From an uncultured Jannaschia sp. (GTDB lineage: Bacteria; Pseudomonadota; Alphaproteobacteria; Rhodobacterales; Rhodobacteraceae): a stretch of DNA of 64,000 nucleotides. This document shows positions 41,908 to 43,066 of this stretch, one piece after another. A program made the position numbers and the translations under genes. A model generated the notes under the pieces. That model made no database searches and was not told the origin of the DNA. It worked only from the letters and a program-made list of their open reading frames with translations. Where the stretch lies: contig NZ_CANLTQ010000013.1 in assembly GCF_947494025.1 (NCBI RefSeq), positions 1-64,000 of the forward strand, in the 5' to 3' direction. Numbering within the stretch: position 1 is the first letter of the stretch; each line of letters opens with the position of its first letter.

Positions 41908-42269
41908 AGCGTGGCGGCCGGAGGGCGTATCGCCCCCGGAGCCTCGGGCCGGATCGCCCTCGTCGTTGCGATCCGTCAGCTTCGGCTCGGTGAAGGATCG
42001 CCGCGCGATCGCGGGACGAAGCGGTCACCTCGCCGCACCGAAGGCAAGCGTATCGCGTGGAATGGTCGTTACTGACACGACTCGAATCGGATCAAGATGA
42101 ATCCGCGACCGTCCAACGTTGCAGGTCTTCGAATGCCCGCTGTCGATCCGGGGCGTCCCGAGTGCGATCCGTCGCGGTAGCCGTTATGCGGCGCAGCCAG
42201 AATCCCGAGGCGTCTTCGGCTTTCCGGGAACCTGCCGAGCAACGTTCGGCAGAACCGGAACGCCAAACG
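41908..42269. other. intergenic region after uvrD
   Basis: A short GGGCG-TAT-CGCCC hairpin follows the helicase stop but lacks a T tract. The rest, up to the terminator of the minus-strand hairpin array, has only chance frames. Confidence 0.4.
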
Positions 42270-42308
42270 AAAAAACGGCGATGCCCAAGGGAGGAAAGGC
42301 ACCGCCGT
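42270..42308 (-). terminator. last array hairpin, doubling as intrinsic terminator
   Basis: ACGGCG-A-TGCC (42275-42285) pairs with GGCA-C-CGCCGT (42298-42308), ten pairs with one mismatch, around a loop that carries the eighth UCCUCCC; six T follow on the minus strand (A at 42270-42275). This ends the DUF1127/array transcript. Confidence 0.85.
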
Positions 42309-42633
42309 CTCTTCTGTGGCGACCACCCCTAGGGAGGAGGTAGGGCGGCCCGCCGGTCCGACGATCGCCAAGGGAGGAGAGGCGACCGACGAAACTTTGT
42401 CGGGAACGTCCGAACATCGGTTCGGGGTTCCCGGAAATCTGTCGAAGGGCCCCGACGACGCCCAAGGGAGGAGAGGACGCCGCCGGTTCCTTCTGTGACC
42501 CAGCCCCCAGGGAGGAAAGGGGCGAGGGTCTCATCCGGCCCCAAGGGAGGAGGAAGAGCCGGAATTTAATGCGGCGGACGGATCAGGGAGGAGATCGCCG
42601 CCGCAACCCCAAACCCGCGAGGGAGGACGCGGG
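42270..42633 (-). ncRNA. array of eight anti-Shine-Dalgarno hairpins (CcsR / 'cuckoo' RNA type)
   Basis: The plus strand carries GGGAGGA eight times, at 42289, 42332, 42372, 42466, 42510, 42545, 42586 and 42621. On the minus strand each reads UCCUCCC, and most sit in a hairpin loop: CCCGCG/CGCGGG around copy 8, GATC plus a seven-pair GCGGCGG/CCGCCGC stem around copy 7, CCGGC/GCCGG around copy 6, GCCCC/GGGGC around copy 5, CGCC/GGCG around copy 3. They follow a DUF1127 gene directly. In Rhodobacter sphaeroides a DUF1127 gene (CcaF1) is co-transcribed with four homologous RNAs, CcsR1-4, each with two such loops; eight loops here match four units. Exact processing sites cannot be seen. Confidence 0.8.
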
Positions 42634-42645
42634 CCCGGAGTGTTC

Positions 42646-42867
42646 TTATTGTCCGTAGGCCGCCTCGAGCGAGATGGCCCGAATGGAGGCCCGGCTGATG
42701 CCGAGATCCGCCAGGTCGCGGTCCGACAATGCCGAAAGCTCCTTCTGCGTGGTGCGATACACGCGGCGCTTCGCCAGCTCGGCGCGCATGCCATTGAGGC
42801 GGGCCGCGATGTTGCCGCGCAACAGGGAGCCAAAACTGGACGTCGAACCGTTGATTGCGTATGCCAT
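42646..42867 (-). CDS. DUF1127 protein (CcaF1-like)
   Basis: A 73-residue basic protein. The C-terminal DUF1127 motif is AKRRVYRTTQKELSALSDRD followed by LADLGISRASI, ending EAAYGQ. The Rhodobacter homologue CcaF1 is a small RNA-binding protein that affects maturation and turnover of the CcsR RNAs and other transcripts under oxidative stress. The ATG at 42867 follows AAAAGGAAA; the longer frame has no ribosome site. The stop is 12 bases before the first hairpin of the array, so both are on one transcript. Confidence 0.9.
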   Translation of the reverse strand: MAYAINGSTSSFGSLLRGNIAARLNGMRAELAKRRVYRTTQKELSALSDRDLADLGISRASIRAISLEAAYGQ

Positions 42868-42951
42868 GTTCGTTTCCTTTTCTCGAAGCCGCTCGCTCCG
42901 TTGTCCTTCCGGCCCCATTGCCGGTCGGGGTGTCCGTTTGCGTTGACTGAG

Positions 42952-42979
42952 AGATGGCGCTGATGCTGCGGTTGCACAA
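42952..42979 (-). promoter_or_regulatory. possible RpoH-type promoter of the DUF1127/array operon
   Basis: On the minus strand TTGTGC (42979-42974) and CCATCT (42957-42952) are 16 bases apart, about 85 bases before the DUF1127 start. A TTG -35 with a CCATnT -10 is the heat-shock sigma pattern; the Rhodobacter ccaF1-ccsR operon is known to depend on RpoHI/RpoHII. The -35 lies in a TTGTGCAA palindrome. Confidence 0.45.
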
Positions 42980-43066
42980 CGAACGATGTTTCAATGCTGC
43001 CATGCAGCAAACGCATGACGGCTTAACGGCGTTTGAGTTCCCGGCGTCCGACCTAGTTCCCCCGGA

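Follow-up and report, generated by a model that had tools for sequence, protein, structure and literature searches.

A DUF1127 operon of Jannaschia with eight anti-Shine-Dalgarno hairpins and a conserved EcfG-type sequence inside the array

The window, a stretch of 64,000 nucleotides from an uncultured Jannaschia sp., carries on its minus strand a gene for a small DUF1127 protein followed by eight tandem copies of TCCTCCC, each in the loop of a predicted hairpin (Table 1). The array of anti-Shine-Dalgarno (aSD) motifs spans 42289-42627, 339 bases in total, downstream of the gene. The genome groups with 19 further Jannaschia genomes in a genome search, and among the best 80 of 239 relatives of the DUF1127 protein the closest named ones are those of Jannaschia; relatives are present in all 20 Jannaschia genomes examined. 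Four DUF1127 genes reside in the genome of the window, and the other three have no adjacent run of motifs: two motifs lie far apart beside one gene (L002), none beside the second (L003), and two on the strand of the third, but upstream of it (L004).

Table 1. Features of the DUF1127 locus, in order of transcription; on the minus strand each TCCTCCC starts at the higher coordinate of the motif range
Feature	Coordinates	Strand	Details
Upstream box TGCTGCATGGCAGCATTG	42992..43009	-	candidate operator or upstream promoter element
RpoH-type promoter sequence TTGTGC-N16-CCATCT	42952..42979	-	motif match
ccaF1-like gene, 73 aa, DUF1127	42646..42867	-	PF06568, 43.6-43.9 bits, cut-off 23.3
aSD hairpin 1	42606..42641	-	motif 42621-42627; 14 pairs, motif 7/7 unpaired
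aSD hairpin 2	42570..42605	-	motif 42586-42592; 13 pairs, motif unpaired
aSD hairpin 3	42534..42563	-	motif 42545-42551; 9 pairs, motif unpaired
aSD hairpin 4	42497..42530	-	motif 42510-42516; 11 pairs, motif unpaired
aSD hairpin 5	42444..42493	-	motif 42466-42472; 17 pairs, motif unpaired
Putative internal EcfG-type promoter	42405..42431	-	-35 GGAAC 42427-42431; -10 CGTT 42405-42408
Distal three-loop unit with terminator, alpha-r14-like	42269..42397	-	full-length RF02344 match
aSD hairpin 6	42357..42393	-	motif 42372-42378; 12 pairs, motif unpaired
aSD hairpin 7	42318..42354	-	motif 42332-42338; 12 pairs, motif unpaired
aSD hairpin 8	42269..42314	-	motif 42289-42295; 18 pairs; T6 at 42270-42275

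The motifs are concentrated at this locus. CCTCCC is rarer than expected in the window (31 occurrences vs. 61.8), and eight of the 31 lie inside the array. Genome-wide, the pattern TCCTCCC-N24..54-TCCTCCC gave 10 matches, six of which are the array, and its reversed control two; searches with two-motif and three-motif patterns found no second array in this genome.

In the minimum-energy fold all eight motifs are fully unpaired, within hairpins of 9-18 pairs. The 379-nt stretch folded has a z of -7.41, and none of 100 shuffles was equally stable. A ninth hairpin, free of the motif (42401-42433), lies in a gap of 94 nt between loops 5 and 6. Hairpin 8 and the six T that follow it likely form an intrinsic terminator, as judged from the predicted fold; a generic scan for sigma-70 promoters and terminators returned nothing, the terminator scan taking loops of 3-8, and the loop of hairpin 8 measuring 10. 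Much of this had been read correctly in a preliminary description of the locus: the DUF1127 reading frame, the eight copies within 340 bases (as GGGAGGA on the plus strand), the inverted repeats that frame most of them, and the hairpin of the last loop with its six T; the folding proposed there as a check bears it out. Other details need amendment. The distance from stop codon to first loop motif is 18 bases, not 12. Of copies 2 and 4 in plus-strand order, both called weak, the former (42332) is the weakest of the eight (z -1.7), the latter (42466) is not weak (z -3.2). The gap, said to split copies 3 and 4, is real, and is properly placed between the fifth and sixth loops in transcription order.

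Loops and gene are kept together. Arrays of at least four exact loops follow the DUF1127 gene in 20/20 Jannaschia genomes. Of 239 relatives the best 80 named DUF1127 loci were kept: two or more tandem loops lie close downstream in 72, a single one in three, and no loop within 150 nt of the stop codon, the distance beyond which a locus was scored as array-free, in five; two of these five (L056 and L064) feature two motifs farther downstream. The control strand carried 0.025 motifs, and upstream sequence 0.05, per up to 1500 nt. The covariance model CcsR1 (RF02791) matched in 205/248 genomes of the family at E 0.001, the Rfam gathering cut-off being passed in 10/248, and in 1/14 control genomes, below the cut-off. 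Given the 72/80 loci and the 205/248 genomes, the association of DUF1127 gene and array is family-wide, and the conservation of the loops in relatives that keep the gene, to which the preliminary description had looked, is borne out. Motif copies per array reach 15: seven loci (L038, L060, L078, L086, L105, L113 and L114) carry 13-15 exact aSD motifs behind the DUF1127 gene, e.g. in Vannielia, Kandeliimicrobium and Paracoccus, and exceed the cuckoo motif as described, with 2-4 hairpins (PMC4504443).

The hairpins were monitored loop by loop in the 20 Jannaschia genomes. Compared with shuffles of their flanks, 137 of 138 loops (one, too near to the stop codon, was dropped) had a mean z of -3.49, and 82% fell below -2. 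Nine genomes have eight exact loops; covariation was assessed in seven of them, leaving aside G003 and G014, whose spacing differs. Hairpins made of a loop and its own flanks were more stable than those combining flanks of different species in 280/336 comparisons (mean -20.1 vs. -14.9 kcal/mol), the gain being smallest for hairpin 2 (-18.6 vs. -17.0 kcal/mol), and the 5' flanks are only 0.39-0.74 identical across these genomes. Stems covary, staying paired while their sequence drifts, and the loop sequence is fixed. GC-rich tandem palindromes after a gene, the last one probably a terminator, might also be repeated terminators or REP-like mobile palindromes devoid of regulatory role; such an origin is very improbable, as the stems differ from one another and covary across species around a fixed loop, the place after the DUF1127 gene is kept in 20/20 Jannaschia genomes, and the two- and three-motif patterns revealed no further array in the genome.

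Upstream of the gene, the pattern TTGTGC-N15..17-CCA recurs in 18/20 Jannaschia genomes, and in the remaining two (G006 and G014) CCA is off by one base. CCCAT in the -10 region is a sequence we take to be RpoH-like. The conserved feature of RpoHI/HII promoters is TTG in the -35 region (PMC3441632), and the ccaF1-CcsR operon of R. sphaeroides has a promoter of the RpoHI/RpoHII class (PMC10253847); a promoter sequence of the RpoH type, as supposed earlier, is in place. An element of the same kind precedes the CcsR-type locus L168. The promoter spacer TTGTGCAnnnGCAGCA recurs in other genera. The box TGCTGCATGGCAGCATTG, which directly precedes the RpoH-type promoter, has close counterparts at the same position in the other upstream regions of Jannaschia listed, and the pattern TGCNGCATRGCRGCATTG of this box occurs once in the whole genome.

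By its sequence, the locus is the Jannaschia orthologue of the CcaF1-CcsR ('cuckoo', CIN1) operon. DUF1127 gene, loops and RpoH-type promoter sequence support this family assignment, which the preliminary description had also made. It had further presented the locus as lying outside the described Rhodobacter case; as a new setting this is not supported, the CcaF1-CcsR operon being the CIN1 locus already described across alphaproteobacteria (PMC10253847). At curated cut-offs Rfam detected two tRNAs only in the window, and the weaker matches reported here come from E-value mode. In the covariance-model search suggested earlier, CcsR1 did match the locus (33.6 bits, E 3.1e-6), but the gathering cut-off of 65.3 was not reached.

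The layout of the array differs from that of CcsR-type loci. Loops are spaced 35, 41, 35, 44, 94, 40 and 43 in the window, and 39, 65, 38, 66, 38, 64 and 37 in L168, a locus over the CcsR1 cut-off in which the loops form four pairs, as they do in L169 and L172; in the seven remaining loci above the cut-off, of ten in all, loops number 8-14 and are mostly paired. Array spacings were listed for loci other than L001-L015, L042 and L043, and a second listing covers loci other than L005-L015, L034 and L042. The pattern of five loops, gap and three loops is common to six more Jannaschia genomes with eight exact loops (G012, G006, G013, G019, G001 and G009). The anatomy suggests units of 5 + 3, not four two-loop RNAs. 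Because the spacing is of this kind, unlike the pairs of L168, the four processed two-loop RNAs of the preliminary description are unsupported; it had noted the gap but not the element inside. The unpaired 5 + 3 layout is no bar to membership in the wider CIN1/cuckoo group, as hairpin number varies there (PMC3927594, PMC4504443). Even spacing of loops as such is found also in Yoonia-type arrays, and is thus not special to Jannaschia.

Operon identity and mode of action taken together, the locus is read as the Jannaschia form of the CcaF1-CcsR (CIN1) stress operon, with a probability of about 0.85. The RpoH-type promoter would transcribe a small RNA-binding DUF1127 protein and, as 3' UTR, the eight hairpins, whose UCCUCCC loops copy the anti-Shine-Dalgarno tail of 16S rRNA. 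The hairpins would be freed as sRNAs by cleavage, a step that RNase E and CcaF1 carry out in Rhodobacter, and would mask the Shine-Dalgarno sites of target mRNAs; CcaF1 is reported to be involved in the RNase E maturation of CcsR RNAs (PMC10253847). The sequence of the loop would be decisive, and stems that merely present the loop could drift yet stay paired. An EcfG-type promoter sequence, conserved in the gap, splits the Jannaschia array 5 + 3, and the three distal loops with the terminator could be made alone, as an alpha-r14-like sRNA, in the general stress response. Transcription from either promoter, processing, and Shine-Dalgarno masking are steps we infer.

The gap element of the window has 18 bases between GGAAC and CGTT, i.e. 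GGAAC-N19-GTT, and is a perfect inverted repeat, the same bases forming the ninth hairpin. In Sphingomonas melonis the published EcfG motif reads GGAAC-N17-20-GTT (PMC6599016). Of the 20 Jannaschia genomes, 13 have GGAAC-N17..19-GTT in the gap. Outside the genus, once aSD stems are masked, it is found in one (L107) of 61 arrays with at least three loops; the unmasked count is 13/61, and 12 of these hold an aSD motif in the spacer. In 20 further loci of the family, apart from the 61, one site has no aSD motif (L173) and another has one in its spacer (L178).

The element was first spotted by eye. The initial pattern, GGAAC-N15..19-[CT]GTT, gave 12/20 genomes; GGAAC-N17..19-GTT gave 14/20, reduced to 13 by removal of G009, where the match is an aSD stem. 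The counts exclude similar sites in G002, past its final aSD loop, and in G010, past its last counted loop, and the gap alignment covers 14/20 genomes, chosen by hand. In both the longest gaps and the whole masked arrays, the dyad is the commonest combination of 5-mer and 3-mer at its spacing (13/20 each). When spacers from 5 to 41 were scanned it ranked first, tied at 13 with TCCCT-CGG at spacing 5-7, which is a piece of the aSD loop plus its stem, and shuffled arrays predict 0.33 genomes with the dyad vs. 14 observed, unmasked. These scans reuse the same sequences, and are a check on selective reading rather than independent data. In a midpoint-rooted tree built from the nepR region, genomes with the element are scattered and seven lack it, so the element is possibly ancestral in Jannaschia. 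The uncounted site of G002 (locus L140) is a GGAAC-N17-GTT located 433 nt past the stop codon, after the last exact aSD loop; the terminator-like hairpin that follows it carries no aSD motif and resembles a distal unit stripped of its loops.

Dyads of this sort can be read as DNA or as RNA. In all 13 gaps with AAC-N17..19-GTT, GG precedes AAC although the pattern did not impose it, and the pairing partner, CC after GTT, is found in 4/13 only. Spacers had a mean z of -0.49 against shuffles, two of the 13 with p < 0.05, vs. -3.49 for the aSD hairpins, a rough contrast since the shuffles differ. The spacer test alone is indecisive, as nepR promoters are near-palindromic themselves (mean z -0.98). 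Because GG is kept in 13/13 gaps, CC in 4/13, and the spacers are little structured, the evidence favours a sequence read as DNA. Alternatively, the locus could be a plain CcsR orthologue with one promoter, its gap no more than a spacer that contains either a structural hairpin or a cleavage site for RNase E, and GGAAC..GTT a stem left behind after loss of its aSD loop. The perfect inverted repeat into which the dyad of the window folds fits such a history, as do the 12/61 non-Jannaschia arrays in which a true aSD loop sits on a GGAACC..GTT stem, so that stems can yield the dyad. The 13 cases are moreover not fully independent, equal-length spacers being 0.40 identical vs. 0.29 expected. A lost hairpin accounts poorly for a GG that persists where its CC partner does not, for spacers so little structured, and for a dyad that stays while aSD stems drift in sequence; one promoter with a plain spacer is nevertheless a serious contender, at rather less than an even chance. 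Single aSD hairpins with a near-fixed GGAACC..GTT stem were observed in Yoonia, Loktanella, Nioella and other Rhodobacteraceae (L050, L055, L062, L065, L067, L076, L081, L089, L094, L070, L071 and L115); in Jannaschia stems drift instead.

GGAAC might also act at the RNA level, e.g. as a site for CcaF1 or another protein that sets cleavage between loops 5 and 6. In favour, the element occupies a transcribed spacer flanked by hairpins, and CcaF1 shares in the RNase E maturation of CcsR RNAs (PMC10253847). Yet GTT follows at a nearly constant 17-19 bases and pairing is not conserved, which is the shape of a promoter; in other genera 60/61 masked arrays lack the element, with the DUF1127 gene retained. 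An RNA signal is improbable.

The general-stress system to which an EcfG promoter would answer is present. NepR scores over its cut-off in 20/20 Jannaschia genomes (50 bits in that of the window), and GGAAC-N17/18-GTT precedes nepR in 19/20. In the genome of the window PhyR (358 bits, cut-off 240) is encoded divergently from nepR, and an ECF sigma gene (325 bits, cut-off 270) follows nepR; the sigma factor is taken as EcfG because of this position. Many of the Jannaschia nepR promoters (L125, L148-L166) are near-palindromic, GGAACC..GGTTC. This would be expected if one sequence served both nepR and phyR, the divergence of which was observed in L125.

Whether the gap element is a working EcfG promoter is, on sequence grounds, a matter of even odds. 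Seven of the 20 genomes have no element in the gap, which counts against it. At N19 the window has the longest spacing seen, one base more than the maximum among the nepR promoters detected (17 or 18), and its copy is a perfect inverted repeat. GGAAC-N17..19-GTTC also has many single matches genome-wide (153, and 63 with the reversed control). Transcription from a promoter of this class would begin 7-9 nt past GTT. At that distance begins the distal full-length match to alpha-r14 (RF02344) in 11/12 genomes, 8 nt in the window. The count refers to 12 of the 13 genomes with the element, the distal match being taken where there are two, as G014 has no alpha-r14 match; in the exception, G003, the match begins 42 nt from GTT, and four loops follow the gap. 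The geometry of the array and the 7-9 nt are one constraint, and are therefore counted as one piece of evidence, not two. Over loops 6-8 of the window alpha-r14 scores 48.8 bits (E 1e-7, full model), below the cut-off of 58.8, as is the best score in Jannaschia (58.0 bits). Five of the seven genomes without the element (G005, G009, G010, G016 and G018) keep an alpha-r14 match, so the three-loop match is independent of the element.

A second, EcfG-driven three-loop sRNA is predicted in Jannaschia on these grounds, with the chances evenly balanced. One array might thereby serve two stress programmes, RpoH yielding the DUF1127 protein with eight loops, EcfG a free three-loop sRNA of the alpha-r14 type without the protein, a proposal that we hold at about one chance in two. 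The operon type is a known stress regulator; what is new is the conserved internal EcfG-type sequence in the Jannaschia gap. No earlier link of EcfG to DUF1127 or aSD sRNA loci was recognised in the titles and abstract openings of mainly non-subscription literature; one article treats both DUF1127 and EcfG, and does not link them in the portion drawn on here (PMC10673084). An internal promoter would link two sigma programmes, RpoH and EcfG, and two sRNA families, CcsR and alpha-r14, and is directly testable. If it works, different stresses would produce different ratios of RNA-binding protein to aSD RNAs. Gain or loss of the internal promoter would then connect free-standing alpha-r14 sRNAs and CcsR operons as the two extremes of a single family.

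The locus has the same build as ccaF1-CcsR1-4 of R. sphaeroides (RF02791): the DUF1127 gene comes first, an RpoH-type promoter sequence precedes it, and tandem aSD loops end in a likely terminator at the distal side. The CcsR-type locus L168 features eight loops, like the window. In contrast with the CcsR type, here represented by L168, L169 and L172 and not by the R. sphaeroides record, the window has five evenly spaced loops, a gap, and three loops. The putative promoter GGAAC-N17..19-GTT of the gap fits both the published EcfG motif and the nepR promoters of Jannaschia, but lies within a 3' UTR array rather than before a gene. The distal unit shares with the alpha-r14, NfeR1 and SmelA075 sRNAs (RF02344) three hairpins with an aSD motif in each loop. 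NfeR1 is reported to have a sigma-70 promoter of its own (PMC10746234, PMC7143759), whereas the unit of the window is the tail of a DUF1127 operon, located behind an EcfG-type sequence.
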